A stretch of 64,000 bases of DNA from Streptomyces misionensis (GTDB lineage Bacteria; Actinomycetota; Actinomycetes; Streptomycetales; Streptomycetaceae), in contig NZ_FNTD01000004.1 in the NCBI RefSeq assembly GCF_900104815.1, positions 5,410,501 to 5,474,500 on the forward strand. Direction: 5' to 3'. This document shows positions 2,301 through 44,770 of the stretch, in pieces (the stretch's first letter is position 1; every line of letters starts with the position of its first letter). The notes under the pieces are model-generated. The model did not search any database. It saw only the letters and a program-made list of their open reading frames with translations, and had not been told where the DNA came from. Made by a program: the position numbers and the translations under genes.

Positions 2301-4001
2301 ATGGACGCTCACGCCATCGAGGAGGGCCGCCGGCGCTGGCAGGCCCGCTACGACGCCGCGCGCAAGCGTGACGCGGACTTCACCACGCTCTCCGGGGACC
2401 CGGTGGAGCCGGTGTACGGGCCCCGGCCCGGAGACACGTACGAGGGATTCGAGCGGATCGGCTGGCCGGGGGAGTACCCCTTCACCCGCGGCCTGCATCC
2501 GACCGGCTACCGCGGCCGCGCCTGGACCATCCGGCAGTTCGCCGGGTTCGGCACCGCCGAGCAGACCAACGAGCGGTACAAGATGATCCTCGCCGCGGGC
2601 GGCGGCGGGCTCTCCGTGGCGTTCGACATGCCGACGCTGATGGGCCGCGACTCCGACGACCCCCGCTCGCTCGGCGAGGTCGGCCACTGCGGGGTCGCGA
2701 TCGACTCGGCCGCCGACATGGAGGTCCTGTTCCGGGACATCCCGCTCGGCGAGGTCACCACGTCGATGACGATCAGCGGGCCCGCCGTGCCCGTCTTCTG
2801 CATGTACCTGGTCGCCGCCGAGCGGCAGGGCGTGGACCCGTCGGTGCTCGACGGCACGCTCCAGACCGACATCTTCAAGGAGTACATCGCCCAGAAGGAG
2901 TGGCTCTTCGGGCCCGGGCCGCATCTGCGGCTGATCGGCGACCTCATGGAGTACTGCACCGCCCGCATCCCCGCCTACAAGCCGCTGTCCGTCTCCGGCT
3001 ACCACATCCGCGAGGCCGGGGCGACGGCCGCGCAGGAGCTGGCGTACACGCTCGCGGACGGCTTCGGGTACGTCGAGCTGGGGCTCAGCCGCGGACTGGA
3101 CGTCGACGTCTTCGCACCCGGCCTGTCCTTCTTCTTCGACGCCCACGTCGACTTCTTCGAGGAGATCGCCAAGTTCCGCGCGGCGCGCCGGATCTGGGCG
3201 CGCTGGATGCGGGACGTGTACGGCGCGCGCGGCGAGAAGGCGCAGTGGCTGCGGTTCCACACGCAGACGGCCGGTGTCTCGCTCACCGCGCAGCAGCCGT
3301 ACAACAACGTGGTGCGCACCGCGGTGGAGGCGCTGGCCGCGGTGCTCGGCGGGACCAACTCGCTGCACACCAACGCCCTGGACGAGACGCTGGCGCTGCC
3401 CGGCGAGCAGGCCGCGGAGATCGCGCTGCGCACCCAGCAGGTGCTGATGGAGGAGACCGGTGTCGCCAACGTCGCGGACCCGCTCGGGGGTTCGTGGTAC
3501 GTCGAGCAGCTGACGGACCGGATCGAGGCGGCGGCGGAGGAGATCTTCCAGCGGATCAGGGAGCGCGGGCAGCGGGCGCATCCGGACGGACGGCACCCGA
3601 TCGGGCCGATGACCTCCGGCATCCTGCGCGGGATCGAGGACGGCTGGTTCACCGGGGAGATCGCCGAGTCGGCCTTCCGCCACCAACAGGCCCTGGAGAA
3701 GGGGGAGAAGAGGATCGTGGGCGTCAACGTTCACACCGGGTCCGTCACCGGCGACCTGGAGATCCTGCGGGTGGGCCACGAGGTGGAGCGGGAGCAGGTG
3801 AGGACCCTCGGCGAGCGCCGCGCGAAGCGGGACGGCACCGCCGTACGCGCCGCCCTCGACGGACTGCTCGCCGCCGCCCGGGACGGCTCGGGCATGATCG
3901 AGCCCATGCTGGCCGCGGTGCGCGCCGAGGCGACCCTCGGCGAGATCTGCGGGGTGCTGCGCGAGGAGTGGGGGGCGTACACGGAGCCCGCGGGGTTCTG
4001 A
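2301..4001 (+). CDS. icmA: Isobutyryl-CoA mutase large (catalytic) subunit
   Basis: The 566-residue product belongs to the coenzyme-B12-dependent acyl-CoA mutases. It interconverts isobutyryl-CoA and n-butyryl-CoA, linking valine breakdown with butyryl-CoA for polyketide and fatty-acid metabolism. Two specificity residues separate it from methylmalonyl-CoA mutase: Phe80 ([10 protein letters not shown]) replaces the mutase Tyr, and Gln198 (YIAQKEWLF) replaces the mutase Arg. The length equals that of known IcmA. The chain ends before any cobalamin-binding domain, so it needs the separate IcmB subunit, which is not in this window. The ATG at 2301 follows a palindromic operator; a much longer frame opening upstream is overlap with the DUF3817 gene. 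Confidence 0.95.
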
Positions 4002-37477: not shown

Positions 37478-37807
37478 GACCGCTCCTGTCCGCGTCAACG
37501 TGGCTGTGGGCGGATGACTATGGGGAGGTGGGTCCTGCGGGAGGTGCTGGGCGCGACCTGTGGGGTGGATATGGAGGAGCCTTCCCACCCTTTTCGGGTG
37601 GGCAATCCGGAACTTTGTTAACTACTCGCGCGTATGTCCACCCGCAAGACCGGCCCACTTCCGCGAGTGCCCCGGCGCCGCCTCCCCACGCCCCGACACC
37701 CCCGTTGGTACGTCCCCACCGACGCCCCGGTAACCACTACCGTCGGGAGGGACGAACGAGACGTACCCCGCGGTACGTCTCATCCCGTAACGCGTCCGAG
37801 GTGGAAT
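37478..37807. promoter_or_regulatory. 330-bp divergent promoter region of glgE and glgP
   Basis: It carries a 7-bp hairpin (CCCACCC-TTTTC-GGGTGGG, 37584-37602) nearer glgE and a perfect 10-bp inverted repeat nearer glgP. A frame open from 37634 would add 58 Arg/Pro-rich residues to GlgP but crosses the inverted repeat and lacks family similarity. Confidence 0.6.
37758..37781. promoter_or_regulatory. 10-bp perfect inverted repeat upstream of glgP
   Basis: GAGACGTACC (37758-37767), CCGC, GGTACGTCTC (37772-37781). It ends 26 bases before the glgP GTG, so a bound protein or an RNA stem here would affect glgP expression. Confidence 0.6.
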
Positions 37808-40426
37808 GTGAAGGCGATCCGTCGGTTCACCGTCCGTCCCGTTCTCCCCGAACCCCTCCGGCCGCTGAGCGACCTCGCGCACAATCTGCGCTGGTCCTGG
37901 CATGCGGAAACGCGCGACCTGTTCCAGTCCGTCGACCCCGAGGCATGGGCCGCGGCCGGCTGCGACCCGGTGCGGCTGCTGGGCCGGGTGCGGCCCGCGC
38001 GGCTGGCCGAGCTGGCCGGGGACCGGCGGTTCCGGCGCCGGCTGAACGCCGCCGCCGACGACCTGGACGACTATCTGACCGGCGACCGCTGGTACCAGGC
38101 CCAGACCGAGGGCCTGCCCGCCGCGGTGGCCTATTTCTCCCCGGAGTTCGGCATCACCGCCGCGCTGCCCCAGTACTCCGGCGGGCTCGGCATCCTCGCC
38201 GGCGACCACCTCAAGGCGGCCAGCGACCTCGGGGTGCCGCTGATCGGGGTCGGACTGCTGTACCGGCACGGCTACTTCCGGCAGACCCTGTCCCGCGACG
38301 GCTGGCAGCAGGAGCACTACCCGGTGCTCGACCCGAACGAACTGCCCCTCACCCGGCTGAAGGAGGCCGACGGCACCTGTGCGCGCGTCTGTCTCGCCCT
38401 GCCCGGCGGCCGGGCCCTGCACGCCCGGATCTGGCTGGCCCAGGTCGGCAGGGTGCCCCTGCTGCTGCTCGACTCCGACGTGGAGGAGAACGACCTCGGC
38501 GAACGCTCCGTCACCGACCGGCTCTACGGCGGCGGCAGCGAGCACCGGCTGCTCCAGGAGATGCTGCTCGGCATAGGAGGGGTCCGCGCGGTGCGCGCGT
38601 ACTGCAGGCTCACCGGGCACCCGGAGCCGGAGGTGTTCCACACCAACGAGGGGCACGCCGGCTTCCTCGGCCTGGAGCGGATCGCCGAACTGTGCGCCGG
38701 CGGGCTGGAGTTCGACGCGGCGCTGGAGGCGGTGCGGGGCGGCACGGTGTTCACCACGCACACCCCCGTCCCGGCCGGCATCGACCGCTTCGAACGGGAC
38801 CTGGTCGCCCGGCACTTCGGGCCGGACGCCGAGTTGCCCGGGATCGAGACGCAGCGGATCCTCGCGCTCGGCATGGAGACCTACCCGGGCGGCGAGCCGA
38901 ACCTGTTCAACATGGCCGTGATGGGGCTGCGCCTCGCGCAGCGGGCCAACGGGGTGTCGCTGCTGCACGGCCGGGTCAGCCGGGAGATGTTCGCCGGACT
39001 GTGGCCGGGATTCGACGCCGAGGAGGTGCCGATCACCTCCGTGACCAACGGGGTGCACGCGCCCACCTGGGTGGCCCCGGAGGTGCTGCGGCTCGGCGCC
39101 CGGCGGATCGGCACCCAGCGGGCCGAGGACGCGCTGACCGTCGGCGGCTCCGAGCGCTGGGACGCGGCGGCGGACATCCCGGACCAGGACGTCTGGGAGC
39201 TGCGCCGCACCCTGCGCGAACAACTGGTGCTGGAGGTGCGGGAGCGGCTGCGCGCCTCCTGGCGGCAACGCGGGGCGGGCAACGCCGAGCTGGGCTGGAT
39301 CGACGGCGTGCTCGACCCGGACGTGCTCACGATCGGGTTCGCCCGGCGCGTGCCGTCGTACAAACGGCTCACCCTGATGCTCCGCGACCGCGACCGGCTG
39401 CGGGCGCTGCTGCTGCATCCGGAGCGGCCGGTGCAGATCGTGGTGGCGGGCAAGGCGCACCCGGCCGACGACGGCGGCAAGCGCCTCGTCCAGGAACTGG
39501 TCCGGTTCGCCGACGACCCGAAGGTGCGCCACCGGATCGTCTTCCTGCCCGACTACGGCATGGCGATGGCGCAGAAGCTCTACCCGGGCTGCGACGTCTG
39601 GCTGAACAACCCGCTGCGCCCGCTGGAGGCCTGCGGCACCTCCGGGATGAAGGCGGCGCTCAACGGCTGTCTGAACCTCTCGGTGCGCGACGGCTGGTGG
39701 GACGAGTGGTTCCGGCCGGACTTCGGCTGGGCCGTCCCGACCGCCGACGGCCCCGGCACGGACCCGGAACGGCGCGACGACATCGAGGCGGCGGCCCTGT
39801 ACGACCTGCTGGAGCAGCGGATCACCCCGCGCTTCTACGAGCGCGGCCGGGGCGGACTGCCGGACCGCTGGATCCAGATGGTCCGCCAGACCCTCACCCT
39901 GCTCGGCCCCAAGGTGCTGGCCGGCCGCATGGTCCGGGAGTACGTCGACCGGCTCTACACCCCGGCCGCCCGCTCGCACCGCGCGCTGACCCCGGACGCC
40001 GCGCGGGAGCTGGCCGGGTGGAAGGCGCGGGTGCGACAGGCCTGGCACGGGGTGAGCGTCGACCACGTGGAGACCACCGAGACCACGGCCACGGCCGAAC
40101 TGGGCACGACGCTGGGACTGCGGGTCCGGGTCGGCCTCGGGGGGCTGTCCCCCGACGACGTGGAGGTGCAGGCGGTGTCCGGGCGGGTGGACGCGCAGGA
40201 CCGCATCACCGACGCCACCGTCGTCCCGCTGAAGCCGGCCGGCGCCCCCGACCTGGAGGGCCGCCAGCTCTACGAGGGCCCCCTCGCCCTCGACCGCACC
40301 GGCCCCTACGGCTACACGGTCCGCATCCTGCCCGCCCACCGCCTGCTGGCCTCCGGCGCGGAACTGGGCCTGGTGGCACTGCCGTCGGAGGAACTGGTCG
40401 AGCACGCGGGGGTGTTGCTGCGGTGA
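37808..40426 (+). CDS. glgP: Alpha-glucan (maltodextrin/glycogen) phosphorylase
   Basis: The protein has 872 residues. It releases glucose 1-phosphate from the ends of alpha-1,4-glucan. An N-terminal DUF3417 segment (LSDLAHNLRWSWHAETRDLF) leads into the GT35 fold; TSVTNGVHAPTW and the pyridoxal-phosphate lysine in EACGTSGMKAALNG are clear. The DUF3417 arrangement marks the actinobacterial type rather than animal-type glycogen phosphorylase. I chose the GTG at 37808 because GAGGTGG precedes it and the family similarity starts there. It is divergent from glgE, so synthesis and breakdown share one control region. Confidence 0.95.
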   Translation: MKAIRRFTVRPVLPEPLRPLSDLAHNLRWSWHAETRDLFQSVDPEAWAAAGCDPVRLLGRVRPARLAELAGDRRFRRRLNAAADDLDDYLTGDRWYQAQTEGLPAAVAYFSPEFGITAALPQYSGGLGILAGDHLKAASDLGVPLIGVGLLYRHGYFRQTLSRDGWQQEHYPVLDPNELPLTRLKEADGTCARVCLALPGGRALHARIWLAQVGRVPLLLLDSDVEENDLGERSVTDRLYGGGSEHRLLQEMLLGIGGVRAVRAYCRLTGHPEPEVFHTNEGHAGFLGLERIAELCAGGLEFDAALEAVRGGTVFTTHTPVPAGIDRFERDLVARHFGPDAELPGIETQRILALGMETYPGGEPNLFNMAVMGLRLAQRANGVSLLHGRVSREMFAGLWPGFDAEEVPITSVTNGVHAPTWVAPEVLRLGARRIGTQRAEDALTVGGSERWDAAADIPDQDVWELRRTLREQLVLEVRERLRASWRQRGAGNAELGWIDGVLDPDVLTIGFARRVPSYKRLTLMLRDRDRLRALLLHPERPVQIVVAGKAHPADDGGKRLVQELVRFADDPKVRHRIVFLPDYGMAMAQKLYPGCDVWLNNPLRPLEACGTSGMKAALNGCLNLSVRDGWWDEWFRPDFGWAVPTADGPGTDPERRDDIEAAALYDLLEQRITPRFYERGRGGLPDRWIQMVRQTLTLLGPKVLAGRMVREYVDRLYTPAARSHRALTPDAARELAGWKARVRQAWHGVSVDHVETTETTATAELGTTLGLRVRVGLGGLSPDDVEVQAVSGRVDAQDRITDATVVPLKPAGAPDLEGRQLYEGPLALDRTGPYGYTVRILPAHRLLASGAELGLVALPSEELVEHAGVLLR

Positions 40427-40765
40427 GCGCTGCTGCTTTGGCGAGGTCGGGTTGACGGTCGGTCCTGCCGCCGACCGATGATCTGTTCCCGGCAACCGGT
40501 CAGACAAAAGCGCTTGGCTCCCGTAAAAATTTGCTGTCGTAGAACTTCCGTGTGGCGTCTGGCGTCGTGTGCAGTCCGGCGCCGCATGCCACAGGCCTGC
40601 GACCTTCACCAGAGATTATGTAGGTGAAGTGAAGGATTGTGGTGAAAATGTGCAACTAGCGATCGTACAGCCGTTTATGGCCAAGAGCCCTCACTAACAC
40701 CCACAGTGCCACGCCAGTATGCTCTTCGGGTCCTTGAGTCATGACCAGTCGACCAGGAGTACCTG
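40427..40765. other. 339-bp AT-richer intergenic region
   Basis: It holds a hairpin CGGTCGG/CCGACCG (40456-40477) that could end glgP transcription and a second inverted repeat CTTCACC/GGTGAAG (40604-40629). GC content falls here and stays low until about 44.2 kb. No coding frame is convincing. Confidence 0.5.
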
Positions 40766-41122
40766 ATGCCCAAAGCCCGGATGACCATGGCGGTCACGAT
40801 CTTCTCAGCGGTGGCGGCCGGCGCCCTCCTTCCGGGTTGCTCGGCGTCGGTCGAGGTCAAGAAGCCAACGCCGCCGAAGCTCTCCGCGGAGAAGCTCTCC
40901 AGCACACTTTCGGAAAAGCTCGCCGCCGCCACAGGACGGCCGAAGCCGCATATCACCTGCCCCGAAGATTTGGTCGGCAAGGTTGGCACCACCATGCGGT
41001 GCACGCTCGTGGCCGACGACGGCAGCACGCTGGGCGTATCCGTAAATGTCACGTCTGTGAGCGGGGATAAGATCAACTACGACTTCAAGGCCGATGACAA
41101 GGCTTCCCCTGCGGGTCATTGA
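40766..41122 (+). CDS. DUF4333-type small lipoprotein
   Basis: The protein has 118 residues. The signal peptide ends in lipobox LLPGC (Cys25), so the mature protein is lipid-anchored outside the membrane. The mature part contains ITCPEDLVGKVGTTMRCTLVADDG, with two cysteines 14 residues apart, characteristic of DUF4333 proteins, which are common in actinobacteria and unassigned. CAGGAG lies 6 bases before the ATG. First gene of a low-GC block with WXG100-like and LpqN-like genes. Confidence 0.85.
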   Translation: MPKARMTMAVTIFSAVAAGALLPGCSASVEVKKPTPPKLSAEKLSSTLSEKLAAATGRPKPHITCPEDLVGKVGTTMRCTLVADDGSTLGVSVNVTSVSGDKINYDFKADDKASPAGH

Positions 41123-41253
41123 CGTCTGGCCGTGGCTGATTGGTTTCGGCTCTCGTGCTGCCCTGGGCGAGATAGCGCTACGGTGCGACGGCCCGTCGTA
41201 AACGAGGGGCTACCACGCCGGCGCCCAGTGATGGCGAACAGGGGAGGCAACTC

Positions 41254-41694
41254 ATGGCAGGTGCGGAGCAGGCCCAGCCGGGAAGCGGCGGGGCAGTGCA
41301 GCCCGTCGGGATGCGGCTGAACCAGGTGCCGGGCGATATCGGAACGGGTCCTGCTTTTCCGGGGCAGGTCGGAGGGCAGAAGCTGGTTTCAACGCCCGCG
41401 GAGAAGAAGGCTGCAGCCAACTTCATCGAGCAACACATTGAGCCCGACACTCATGAGGCAGGAGGTTGGGCGGATAAGGACACCATTACGGCCGTCAACG
41501 CCTTCTGTCCGGGGTGGCACACGTCGGGTGCTCTGAAGGAGGCGCACGATGCTTGGGCAGACCAGGTGAAGAACCTGATGCACATGCTCGTGGGGGACAA
41601 GCAGGCGCTGCGCAGCGCCAATACCACGCTGCAGTCGACGGACTTTCAAGTCGGTGAGAAAACGAGCTCGGTGTCGGTGCTCTACGGATACTGA
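41254..41694 (+). CDS. WXG100-like small protein
   Basis: The protein has 146 residues. The first 45 are Gly/Pro/Gln-rich and flexible. The second half is helical with FCPGWHTSGALKEAHDAW, which resembles the WxG turn of type VII (ESX) substrates, then DQVKNLMHMLVGDKQAL. There is no signal peptide. GGGAGGC precedes the ATG at 41254. It is followed 73 bp on by a larger WXG-like protein, so the pair may form the heterodimer needed for ESX export. No ESX core gene (EccC ATPase) lies in the window. Confidence 0.65.
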   Translation: MAGAEQAQPGSGGAVQPVGMRLNQVPGDIGTGPAFPGQVGGQKLVSTPAEKKAAANFIEQHIEPDTHEAGGWADKDTITAVNAFCPGWHTSGALKEAHDAWADQVKNLMHMLVGDKQALRSANTTLQSTDFQVGEKTSSVSVLYGY

Positions 41695-41767
41695 ACGACC
41701 GTTTCAGTCACCAACTTTTGATTCACCGCACAAACCCGACAGTCTGTTGTGTGATAACGGGGATCCC

Positions 41768-43090
41768 ATGCCGACTTACCGCGAGATCATGACCACCGAC
41801 CTGTCCGCCCTCACCGCAGCAGCGGACAGCTGGGACGGGATGGCGAAGAAGTTTCACACGCAGGAACTGGCATATCACAGACACGTATGCGGTATCACTC
41901 TGAACCAGAACTGGATCGCGGTGAGTGCCGACGCGGCGCGGGAGCGTTTCAACGTCACGTTCAGGCAGTTCCAGGCCGCGCAGACCGAGGCCAAGGCGGT
42001 AGCCTCACTGCTGCGTGAGGCGCACACAGATTTCACCGGTCTCAGGAAGAAGCTGGAGTCCGCTCAGGCGGACGCCGTCAAGGCAGGCATGGTGGTGTCG
42101 GAGGAAGGTGTGGTCTCCTACGACACCGCGAAACTGAGTGAAAACGAACGCGCTGCTCTCCATCATGATCCGGATTACCAGCAGTCCGTAGGTAAATCTG
42201 TCGCCTCGTGGCAGGCGGAGATCAATCGTCTTGTGAAGGAAATGGGCCACATCGACGCAGAGGTCGAAAACGCCCTCAAGCGGGTGATGGTCGACACTGA
42301 CGTCAGGGACGGCACGCTTACCGGCTTCAACGGCCAGGCCCATGGAGACATCAAAACGTACGAGGACGAGGCCAAGCGCGAGGCCCGTACCAAAGCCGAC
42401 GGCTGGGTGTCCAAAGGAAAGTCAGACGCGTCCGGTCCCGATAAGGGATGGGATGCGAGCGGTCCCGATCTCAAAAACGGCAAACTGGGGGAGGTGGAAG
42501 CGCACGGCGACCTCGGGAGCGCTGAAGGGGAGGGCTCGCTCACCAGGGGGCCATGGAAGCTCGACGGGAAGGCCGACGTTTACGCGGGGGCCAAGGGTTC
42601 CGCCAGTGCTGAGGCATCCAAGGACGGCATCACAGGGGACGCGAGCGTCTTCGCGGGGGGCGAAGGCTCGGCCGAGGGTTCCGTGGAGGTCGGCCCTGCC
42701 AGCGTCTCCGGAAAAACGGAAGCCACGGTGGGCGGAGAGGCCAGCGCCAGCGTCGGGGCAGGTAAGGACGGTGCCCACGTTGGCGCAGAGGCGTTCGCGG
42801 GAGCCAAGGGCGGTGGCGAAATCGGGGCTGACGTAGGCGGAATTTCGGCCGGTTTCTCCGCCGAAGGGTGGGCCGGCCCCGGTGCCGAAGCCGAGTGGGG
42901 ATACAAGAGGAGCGACCAAGGAGTGTGGAGTTTCGAAGGGAGCGTGGGTCTCTCCCCCGCCCTTGGTGGCGAGATGGGCTTTGATTTCAACATCGATCCG
43001 AACAAGGTTGCTCACACGGCGGATGACCTGGCTGGTGCTGTGGGCAACGGAGCGCGTTCCCTCGGGCATGCCATCAGTAACGTGTTCTGA
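41768..43090 (+). CDS. Large WXG-like protein with Gly/Ala-rich repeat C-terminus
   Basis: The protein has 440 residues. Residues 1-210 are helical, with a WXG100-like hairpin centred on LNQNWIAVSADAARERF. A charged linker (about 210-260, Lys/Asp/Gly-rich) leads to about 150 residues of alternating Gly-Ala-Ser-Glu/Val segments (for example GKTEATVGGEASASVGAG), predicted to be a regular beta structure. No catalytic motif or toxin fold is recognisable. GGGGA precedes the ATG at 41768. Base composition is less GC-rich than in neighbouring genes. A secreted effector or surface protein is an inference. Confidence 0.7.
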   Translation: MPTYREIMTTDLSALTAAADSWDGMAKKFHTQELAYHRHVCGITLNQNWIAVSADAARERFNVTFRQFQAAQTEAKAVASLLREAHTDFTGLRKKLESAQADAVKAGMVVSEEGVVSYDTAKLSENERAALHHDPDYQQSVGKSVASWQAEINRLVKEMGHIDAEVENALKRVMVDTDVRDGTLTGFNGQAHGDIKTYEDEAKREARTKADGWVSKGKSDASGPDKGWDASGPDLKNGKLGEVEAHGDLGSAEGEGSLTRGPWKLDGKADVYAGAKGSASAEASKDGITGDASVFAGGEGSAEGSVEVGPASVSGKTEATVGGEASASVGAGKDGAHVGAEAFAGAKGGGEIGADVGGISAGFSAEGWAGPGAEAEWGYKRSDQGVWSFEGSVGLSPALGGEMGFDFNIDPNKVAHTADDLAGAVGNGARSLGHAISNVF

Positions 43091-43139
43091 ACCGATGACA
43101 CGTGGTCGTGAGTGAACCGACGCAGAGAGGGACCCCTGA

Positions 43140-43637
43140 ATGTCGACGAATCTGCCGGCACCGATCACATTCGACTTGCCGAAGGGCTGGCAAGTGGCCC
43201 CTCCAGACAAACTCGGCGCGCCTGACGCGTCATTCGTTGCTGTTCACCTTCCGCCGGATGACGGCTTCACTGCGAATATAACGATTGATGGCGAGTATCG
43301 GCCGGATACTGCGACTCTTCCTGAGATCGCCGACGAGTCGGTGGAGCACATGGACCAGGCAGCCTCGCCGGTCGTAGTCACCGATCGCTGCGAGGCCGGG
43401 TCCTCGGACGCGCCAGGCTTCACGCAGACACTGGCCTTCTCGATTTCTGTCGCAGGGAAGAGCCGCGCCCTCGTCCAGTCCCAGGCATACCTGTCCCTGT
43501 TGGACATTGAGGACCCGCACAAGCGGGTAGTGATCAGATTTGTGCTCACCTCCACCGAATCGCAGCATCCGACTGTTCTGGACGATTTCAGGGCACTCCT
43601 GGGAACCGTCCGTCCGGGCGATGGCGGGGCGCCTTAA
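43140..43637 (+). CDS. LpqN/DcrB-like protein
   Basis: The protein has 165 residues. The pattern ITFDLPKGWQVAPP near the start, an alternating beta core, and HPTVLDDFRALLGTVRP at the end match the LpqN/DcrB/PsbP-like fold. Mycobacterial LpqN is an exported lipoprotein, but here no signal peptide or lipobox is present, so a cytosolic binding or chaperone role for the preceding protein is possible. It follows the 440-residue gene by 49 bp, with AGAGAGGG before the ATG. Confidence 0.7.
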   Translation: MSTNLPAPITFDLPKGWQVAPPDKLGAPDASFVAVHLPPDDGFTANITIDGEYRPDTATLPEIADESVEHMDQAASPVVVTDRCEAGSSDAPGFTQTLAFSISVAGKSRALVQSQAYLSLLDIEDPHKRVVIRFVLTSTESQHPTVLDDFRALLGTVRPGDGGAP

Positions 43638-43696
43638 GTGATCCCCGAAGTGGCCGAGCCTTGTGTCGGCGGCCACGCTTTTCATAGTCTGACTTC

Positions 43697-44209
43697 ATGG
43701 GACTTTTCGACAGACTCACCGGTACCCAGCATCCAGCGGAGGGCGTTTCGCCGGTCACGCGGGAGGAGATGAGGGGTGTTCTGCTCGGTCTCAATCAGCC
43801 TGATGTTCCCTACGTGATCCGGTACAGCGCCGGGGAGCAGTGTGACCTGGTGGCAGAGTGGCGCCTGACAGAGCCTGCATGGCGGCAGGTCTTCGCGGAG
43901 TCCCAGATCACTCACGCCGTTCGGATCAGGATGCGACTGGTCCGGGAAGGCAATGAGGTTCGAGCACTCGAAGAGCAGTGGGAGATCGCTCGAAACGGGT
44001 CTCCGGCGGCCCTCGAGCTGTCGAAACAGTATACGCGCGGGCCGAGTCGGACCGTCAGTCGTCGCTGGACTGTCGGCCGTAGGGAGAACGGTCACCTGGA
44101 AATGGCGGAAACCTTCCGCTTCGATAGCGCGCAGCTGCGCGATCCGCTGCGGGACACCGTCCTCCAGTCCGGTTGGACCTGGCGGGGTGTGGTCTTCGGG
44201 AAGCTGTGA
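43697..44209 (+). CDS. Conserved hypothetical protein
   Basis: The protein has 170 residues, cytosolic, mixed alpha/beta, with MGLFDRLTG at the start, DLVAEWRLTEPAWRQVF in the middle and WTWRGVVFGKL at the end. I recall similar proteins in Streptomyces, without an assigned function. TAGTCT (43685-43690) could be a -10 box for a nearly leaderless transcript. Last gene of the low-GC block, convergent with the DUF1990 gene. Confidence 0.75.
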   Translation: MGLFDRLTGTQHPAEGVSPVTREEMRGVLLGLNQPDVPYVIRYSAGEQCDLVAEWRLTEPAWRQVFAESQITHAVRIRMRLVREGNEVRALEEQWEIARNGSPAALELSKQYTRGPSRTVSRRWTVGRRENGHLEMAETFRFDSAQLRDPLRDTVLQSGWTWRGVVFGKL

Positions 44210-44235
44210 GGTCTGCATCTCCACGGCCATCGAGG

Positions 44236-44757
44236 TCACTCCTCCGTCAGCCCCTCGCACAGCCTGCGCAGGGCCGCGCCGCAGCGGCGGGCGTAGGCGT
44301 GTTGCAGCCCCCGGGTGGCGGGGCCGCCGGCCCTGGCGTACCAGCTGGCGGGTTTGCTGAACGCGGCGACCGTCAGCCAGACCGTGCCGTCGCCGGTGCG
44401 GTCGACGACGAAGGCCTCCTCGCCGCACTCGGGGTGGCCGGCGAGGGTGCCGTAGGCCCATCCCGCGCGGCGCGGCTCCTCGGTGGTCCAGATGATCCGG
44501 CAGGGGGCCCTGACCAGGCCGGCCAGGGAGACCGTGACGTCCACTCCGGGGGCGGCGCGGTCGGCGGCGGCGGTTATGCCGACGCCTATCGCGCGGTGCA
44601 TCTCCCAGGTGAGGACCGCCTCGGCGGCCCGGTCGAAGACCCGCCGGCCCTCGCCGAGGCGGGCGCGCACCAGCAGGGGGCGGTAGCCGGGCGGGCAGAA
44701 GGTCAGGTCGTCGCGGGTCGCTCCGACCGGTTCGTGGGTGAAGGGTGCCGAGGACAT
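44236..44757 (-). CDS. DUF1990 family protein
   Basis: The protein has 173 residues. Family patterns are GYRPLLVRARLGEGRRVFDRA, AVLTWEMHRAIGV and the late GHPECGEEAFVV and FSKPASWYARAGGPATR. Function is unknown; plant and bacterial members are single-domain. The ATG at 44757 lies 8 bases after TACTCT (44766-44771 on the minus strand), so the transcript is probably leaderless. Confidence 0.88.
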   Translation of the reverse strand: MSSAPFTHEPVGATRDDLTFCPPGYRPLLVRARLGEGRRVFDRAAEAVLTWEMHRAIGVGITAAADRAAPGVDVTVSLAGLVRAPCRIIWTTEEPRRAGWAYGTLAGHPECGEEAFVVDRTGDGTVWLTVAAFSKPASWYARAGGPATRGLQHAYARRCGAALRRLCEGLTEE

Positions 44758-44770
44758 GGGGCCCAAGAGT

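Follow-up and report, generated by a model that had tools for sequence, protein, structure and literature searches.

Streptomyces encode type VII (ESX) secretion systems (T7SS). In Staphylococcus aureus, the T7SS toxin EsxX is accompanied in all cases analysed by the soluble pair ExiAB, which neutralises it in the cytosol, and the ExiCD genes of the same system also occur as orphan immunity genes, according to the portion of the source available to us (PMC12744356). PsbP/MOG1-like genes found beside toxins of type VI secretion systems (T6SS) have been regarded as possible adaptors, and PsbP/MOG1 is among the domains fused to an immunity family (PMC3482391); another report, like the former available in part, calls the fold diagnostic of T6SS (PMC12419801). 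The Streptomyces ESX machine is treated in PMC8401907, the accessible part of which mentions no effector of the kind considered here, no LpqN and no polymorphic toxins. Here, we analyse a 64,000-nucleotide stretch of the Streptomyces misionensis genome (contig NZ_FNTD01000004.1), referred to throughout as the window, which contains a cassette of five intact plus-strand genes encoding proteins of 118, 146, 440, 165 and 170 amino acids (aa). We consider it very likely that these genes form a T7SS effector cassette and, with less assurance, on balance probable that the whole is a mobile polymorphic effector cassette serving an ESX system.

The cassette shares its plan with several described systems. 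Like the S. aureus T7SS LXG toxin EsxX/LapX3/4, it appears to combine a helical N-terminal targeting domain, small partner genes (helical for EsxX, putatively so here) and a Gly-rich C-terminal effector, with one partner group that accompanied EsxX in all cases analysed and another that also occurs as orphans. By contrast, EsxX belongs to T7SSb rather than T7SSa and ends in a glycine-zipper helix rather than the beta-meander predicted here, and its partners, compared with ours by description rather than by sequence, are DUF5085 proteins (ExiAB) and polytopic membrane proteins (ExiCD), as given in the available text (PMC12744356). The mycobacterial ESX substrates PE25-PPE41 provide a second parallel, since the N-terminal half of the 440-aa protein aligns to PPE41 and a small partner gene lies upstream; unlike PE/PPE proteins, however, the window protein scores below the Pfam PPE cut-off, its partner is unrecognised by Pfam, the YxxxD/E motif is not conserved and the C-termini are interchangeable. 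The 165-aa protein resembles the T6SS Eag chaperones EagT6 and SciW in its predicted PsbP/Mog1 fold, its lack of a visible signal peptide and its position beside one effector gene, but it pairs with a C-terminal beta domain instead of N-terminal transmembrane helices and does so in a T7SS rather than a T6SS context (PMC7773334, available portion). Unlike the mycobacterial lipoprotein LpqN, it has no signal peptide or lipobox by eye and is linked to an effector. With the WXG, T7SS_signal and RHS polymorphic toxins the cassette shares a modular N-terminal trafficking domain, a swappable C-terminus, small downstream genes and an insertion site, but its C-terminal domain has no Pfam family and different genes around it (PMC3482391, available portion).

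We read the cassette as a known type in a new build: a probable polymorphic effector cassette of a T7SS, whose C-terminal domain belongs to a family without a name and which includes a partner predicted to have the Mog1 fold. In the portions of the open-licence literature that we could consult, we found no description of it or of a Streptomyces T7SS toxin of this build, and print elsewhere is possible; within the same scope, work on LpqN with T7SS, on T7SS beta-barrel toxins and on DUF4333 held no description of the cassette, and work on Mog1 with type VII secretion connected the fold with T6SS and likewise did not describe it (PMC3482391, PMC12419801). If correct, our interpretation would provide a testable antibacterial cargo for Streptomyces ESX systems, an effector-domain family not yet named in Pfam, and a role for the PsbP/Mog1 fold in a T7SS.

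Two co-varying blocks within one gene

The gene for the 440-aa protein joins two regions: residues 1-212 (N-half; 41768-42403, plus strand), a PPE-like helical targeting domain by prediction, and residues 213-440 (C-half; 42404-43090, plus strand), a predicted Gly/Ala-rich amphipathic beta-meander and candidate toxin domain. In a linkage survey of 150 genomes of the genus, the window genome included, the 440-aa protein was matched in 92, most of the listed matches covering only the N-half of longer proteins with other C-termini, carried by open frames mostly of 400-1000 codons. Homologues of the 146-aa protein (41254-41694, plus strand) lay within 1200 bp of an N-half position, among the matches listed, in 55 of 56 cases, and 43 of these places adjoin proteins without the C-half. 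All 33 listed C-half matches, in 32 genomes, had a homologue of the 165-aa protein (43140-43637, plus strand) within 200 bp; the 34th 165-aa match is a fragment, leaving no whole 165-aa gene without a C-half. C-half matches were listed down to ~4e-7 with 11 candidates scored per genome, and weak ones may be missed. A second collection, of named genomes, gave a C-half match in 31 of the 35 loci found with a 165-aa gene. A first-pass annotation of the window had proposed that the repeat effector and the LpqN-like protein are partners, which this linkage bears out; the combination, unfamiliar to that annotation, is not unique to the window genome, since the C-half and the 165-aa partner are found together in 32 of the 150 genomes.

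For the comparison of protein distances, removal of L134 (C-half in three pieces), L148 (the window's own partial copy) and duplicates left 57 distinct C-half loci including the window, 44 of which hold all five parts (146-aa, N-half, C-half, 165-aa and 170-aa); where a 146-aa match fell in two pieces, the nearer piece alone was used. Across these 44 loci the 146-aa and N-half distances gave a Mantel r of 0.94, and the C-half/165-aa, C-half/170-aa and 165-aa/170-aa pairs gave 0.70, 0.69 and 0.63, respectively, while cross-block values ranged from -0.03 to 0.13. The distances of the DUF4333 protein track those of the C-half, 165-aa and 170-aa proteins (r 0.47-0.55) and not those of the N-half (0.11) in 19 testable loci. 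Between the loci L116 and L117, identity is 87% over the C-half but 23% over the N-half, and the C-half is also found on T7SS_signal N-termini (PF21725) in L107 (E 7e-30), L219 and L220. This co-variation in two blocks suggests that the 440-aa gene is the recombination product of a delivery block (the 146-aa partner and the N-half) and an effector block (the C-half with the 165-aa, 170-aa and DUF4333 proteins). We regard the module structure and mobility of the cassette as well supported. The apparent domain swapping of the 440-aa gene is a hallmark of polymorphic toxins, whose trafficking N-terminus and exchangeable C-terminal domains are both present here.

Among 295 other genomes of the class, the C-half profile found matches in six (L219-L224). 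Of the five scanned for N-termini, L219 and L220 have T7SS_signal, L221 and L223 weak WXG100-type matches and L222 none. In L219, L220 and L224 the gene following the C-half encodes a relative of the 165-aa protein (E 4e-37 to 3e-24), and in L221 its product belongs to the LpqN family (E 2e-13). Profile comparison with the 165-aa family was weak for L222 (8% probability) and moderate for L223 (73%) and L221 (44%), and that with the 170-aa family was weak for L219 (21%) and L220 (6%), values that are suggestive only. Directly after its LpqN-like gene, L221 encodes a 170-like domain behind two hydrophobic segments (2573-3367; 88% probability), possibly a membrane-anchored version; weaker 170-like domains occur in L224 (E 7e-6) and L219 (E 6e-4), and DUF4333 genes adjoin the L219, L220 and L224 loci.

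PPE-like N-halves were also seen on several other C-termini, with small genes downstream, in L071 (678-1895) and L072-L090; the C-terminus is another Gly-rich domain in L071 (by eye), resembles DUF6571 in L078 (E 2.5e-7) and forms a hydrophobic region in L089 (by eye). In L213 (6169-8028), a distant N-half-like protein includes a domain of the alpha/beta hydrolase type (PF06259, E 8.8e-34), and its neighbour is a 170-aa homologue. The public record of one 440-aa homologue, P0125, names it a 'putative sodium/potassium/calcium exchanger', probably a misannotation.

Probable delivery block and ESX machines

The AlphaFold model of the N-half is a PPE-like helical hairpin, the form of N-terminal domain carried by T7SS substrates, and can be superposed on PPE41 at 3.4 Å across 158 residues; among the homologues of the 440-aa protein, one (P0199) has a precomputed match to PF00823. 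A WXG-like hairpin had been expected at first pass in the 146-aa protein and at the start of the 440-aa protein, and in the latter a helical hairpin is indeed predicted. The 146-aa protein itself has no Pfam match, and we infer that it may be a PE/WXG-like small export partner. Its family alignment contains two invariant tryptophans, and many members end in an S-x-L-D-x-[YF]-like sequence (by eye), a possible export or recognition tail.

No ESX core gene lies near the cassette, for which reason the first-pass annotation had it depend on a secretion system encoded elsewhere. In line with this, the same genome holds two ESX/T7SS core loci, both distant from the window, with EccB, EccC-like (three FtsK_SpoIIIE stretches) and EccD genes, and the locus at C4:5.74-5.75 Mb also holds a subtilase and two WXG100 genes.

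The probable effector domain, its partners and competing interpretations

The AlphaFold model of the C-half is an amphipathic beta-meander of low confidence. Residues 213-410 are rich in Gly (23%), Ala (15%) and Ser (11%) with a 48-residue (two-strand) periodicity, and the two-residue hydrophobic alternation of the C-half is 1.50 versus 0.50 +/- 0.11 in shuffled sequences, a value reached by none of 5000 shuffles. Among the rows shown, fold comparison returned no known pore-forming toxin for the C-half, a result that excludes nothing. The C-half appears to represent a family of effector domains that Pfam does not name and is likely a toxin; that it forms a beta-pore is a model-based suggestion that we hold to be rather doubtful.

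For the 165-aa protein, AlphaFold predicts over the whole domain the PsbP/Mog1 fold common to LpqN and the T6SS Eag chaperones, and its structural matches include EagT6 and SciW at 12-17% identity; by sequence, the best full-length match of the family in the PDB is 3lyd (E 0.11), the rest being short and at chance level. By analogy, we slightly favour a role for this LpqN/Mog1/PsbP-fold, presumably cytosolic, protein as an effector chaperone or cytosolic neutraliser.

The gene for the soluble 170-aa protein (43697-44209, plus strand) behaves differently in the 150 genomes: of its 48 matches, 24 are orphans over 10 kb away from the nearest listed C-half match, a pattern also seen in some immunity genes, 15 genomes carry it without a listed C-half match, and L100 has a tandem copy. 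Among the 48, a split gene (G099:C291) counts as two pieces, and two matches are short fragments (G047, G080). Among the 19 of these 24 orphan loci that were read, two have 165-aa fragments and three an adjoining DUF4333 gene (one partial). The protein has no Pfam match and no PDB relative at E<=1, the best Pfam match among 46 relatives reaching E 0.0049, and its candidacy as the immunity protein is an even call. The 118-aa DUF4333 protein (40766-41122, plus strand; PF14230, E 1.4e-14), a lipoprotein as read from its sequence, is the only match of its family in its own genome, is present in 28 of the 57 C-half loci and is a candidate for protection at the extracellular face. On the EsxX analogy, the 165-aa protein would act as the partner in the cytosol, and protection would fall to the 170-aa and DUF4333 genes.

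Taking these elements together, we infer export, toxicity, pore formation or other membrane action and a role for each partner. The delivery block would assemble into a helical complex that one of the two ESX machines recognises for export. The C-half would act as the effector, most likely as an antibacterial toxin and probably on membranes; its long amphipathic strands suggest that it might enter the membrane of a competitor as a beta-sheet or barrel. Before export, the 165-aa protein would bind the C-half in the producer cytosol in the manner of Eag chaperones with T6SS effectors, and the 170-aa protein and DUF4333 lipoprotein would protect against the effector. A more far-reaching proposal, which we offer tentatively and judge unlikely in its entirety, is a new class of actinobacterial T7SS antibacterial effector that, as a self-contained amphipathic beta-meander, builds a barrel or sheet in the membrane, is restrained in the producer by a dedicated Eag-like chaperone of the PsbP/Mog1 fold, has compartment-specific protection by the 170-aa (cytosolic) and DUF4333 proteins, and spreads in Actinomycetes by swapping delivery domains.

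Several observations weigh against the toxin cassette. The C-half matches no Pfam family and no known toxin family, and its model is weak (block pLDDT 52-79 over residues 211-410, <40 in the last 20 residues, pTM 0.50); Foldseek with this model gave nothing at E<=0.001, and TM-scores to porins were ~0.1. The PPE similarity of the N-half is tied with BAR domains in fold comparison, and the PF00823 cut-off was not reached, the window protein being unlisted at E<=1 and the best relative scanned scoring 19.7 bits versus 26. The YxxxD/E export motif occurs in only 6 of 30 partners and in 21 of 64 N-halves and is thus not conserved, which counts against a textbook ESX substrate. The two blocks are not wholly independent, as the N-half/C-half correlation of 0.13, low but non-zero, was reached by 8 of 999 permutations; the 146-aa/C-half correlation of 0.11, reached by 13 of 999, is also small rather than nil. 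In 4 of the 35 second-collection loci with a 165-aa gene or a piece of one, no C-half match was present in the stretch fetched, L119 and L144 having the gene and L145 and L147 only a piece. Neither the 165-aa nor the 170-aa protein has a transmembrane segment by hydropathy, which is unusual for immunity to a pore acting from outside. Seven C-half genomes of the 150 have no 170-aa match at all, and 10 of the 57 C-half loci have no 170-aa gene nearby, nine of these with a T7SS_signal-type N-terminus. Moreover, 7 of the 19 orphan 170-aa loci read (L183, L208, L209, L211, L212, L215 and L216) share one chromosomal position, presumably between exonuclease-like and phosphotransferase-like genes near sugar-transporter genes, sometimes with DUF4333, and these copies may have been inherited vertically and serve a different function.

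The partner roles may instead be exchanged, with the 165-aa Mog1-fold protein as the immunity protein, in view of the similar fold found in Tsi3 and TplEi, two immunity proteins of T6SS, and with the 170-aa and DUF4333 proteins as accessories or guards against a second effector. We give this arrangement about one chance in four: in the 150 genomes the 165-aa gene is never a full-length orphan (33 of 34 matches beside the C-half, the last a fragment) whereas the 170-aa gene is an orphan in half of its matches, and the LpqN and Eag matches have the better scores.

Slightly less probable is a non-toxic surface or structural protein, in which a T7SS would deliver the Gly/Ala beta-sheet protein to aerial hyphae or the cell wall; the 165-aa protein would chaperone it, and the remaining proteins would be accessory. 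The Gly/Ala/Ser content and 48-residue periodicity are indeed those of structural or adhesive repeats, the C-half has no known toxin match, and relatives' cassettes are of ordinary GC content (see below); but the C-half is swapped between delivery types, its insertion site is common to recognised toxins, the 170-aa genes are orphaned and duplicated, and presence is patchy at 32 of 150 genomes. Thus, where the first-pass annotation saw a secretion or surface module, comparison across genomes favours delivery and effector blocks of the polymorphic-toxin type, with a surface role retained at the low probability just given.

Insertion site and composition of the cassette

The five genes occupy an inserted interval (40427-44235) between a plus-strand gene (37634-40426), which we take, with the earlier annotation, to be glgP, and a minus-strand DUF1990 gene (44236-44766; PF09348, E 1.7e-56). 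The site was searched in 36 other genomes of the genus and judged in the 16 with a close DUF1990 and M4-protease neighbour; of the remaining 20, seven had no DUF1990 match and 13 a more distant one, with no glgP or M4 gene beside it in those fetched. None of the 16 relatives has the window cassette at this site. In seven, the glgP homologue and DUF1990 are separated by only 3-150 bp, so the site is empty; in two others, the gap of 264 or 758 bp holds no cassette gene; and three contain unrelated genes, namely a GNAT/8xMP protein (L200), three small open reading frames (L203) and an AAA and VWA gene group (L204). L202 has no glgP within the 10 kb read, and in L201 the contig ends. On the DUF1990 side, L206 (8047-10309) encodes a T7SS_signal-CdiA_C protein, preceded by a 107-aa gene (E 1.1e-21 for CdiA_C, with T7SS_signal barely above cut-off), and L205 (4403-9735), in which glgP falls outside the stretch read, encodes a T7SS_signal-RHS-Ntox28 protein (E 9.2e-53 for Ntox28) next to a 203-aa gene. 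These recognised T7SS toxins suggest that the site accepts different T7SS toxin cassettes, and the DUF1990 side appears to be a toxin hotspot, a chromosomal insertion site holding different polymorphic toxins in different strains.

The composition of the cassette agrees with acquisition, which the first-pass annotation had proposed on the strength of low GC content and which the empty or otherwise filled sites in relatives and the foreign codon usage corroborate. GC at third codon positions is 0.71-0.80 in the cassette genes versus 0.93-0.99 in the six flanking genes measured, and the codon adaptation index (CAI) is 0.27-0.40 versus 0.69-0.86. The cassettes of relatives have ordinary GC, with a mean difference of -0.4% and values below the surroundings in 32 of 60 loci elsewhere (duplicates and L148 included), which makes the low GC a property of the window copy. 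A horizontally acquired relic whose function has decayed is quite improbable, for although the low CAI and the truncated copies elsewhere (L179, L186, L147) would suit it, all five frames are intact and the 165-, 440- and 170-aa proteins have homologues of similar length at 43-77% identity (best 120 of each list). A secretion-system or housekeeping surface module was rejected, as there is no machine gene nearby and the parts recombine in two blocks.

Pfam at its cut-off recognises DUF4333 alone among the five proteins, and Pfam and NCBIfam searches gave nothing or little for the 146-, 165- and 170-aa proteins; matches to DUF6033, TerB_C, BT_MCC_alpha and similar Pfam families were discarded as weak. 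The 440-aa protein has a single match within its own 8.47-Mb genome. The window contains no tRNA, and flanking repeats are short and imperfect, none convincing (a 22-nt, 82% inverted pair at 40440/44367 is unremarkable). A phage or conjugative origin was rejected on these two grounds together with the lack of a phage match for the 440-aa protein and of a confirmed viral-contig relative for the 165-aa protein. In other genomes the cassette is found at many other places. Three Streptomyces plasmids carry a 165-aa homologue of 52-55% identity, and on one linear Streptomyces albus plasmid (NZ_CP103061.1; L225) a 165-aa homologue lies behind a 1311-bp gene, and a gene for a tyrosine recombinase is ~3 kb away.

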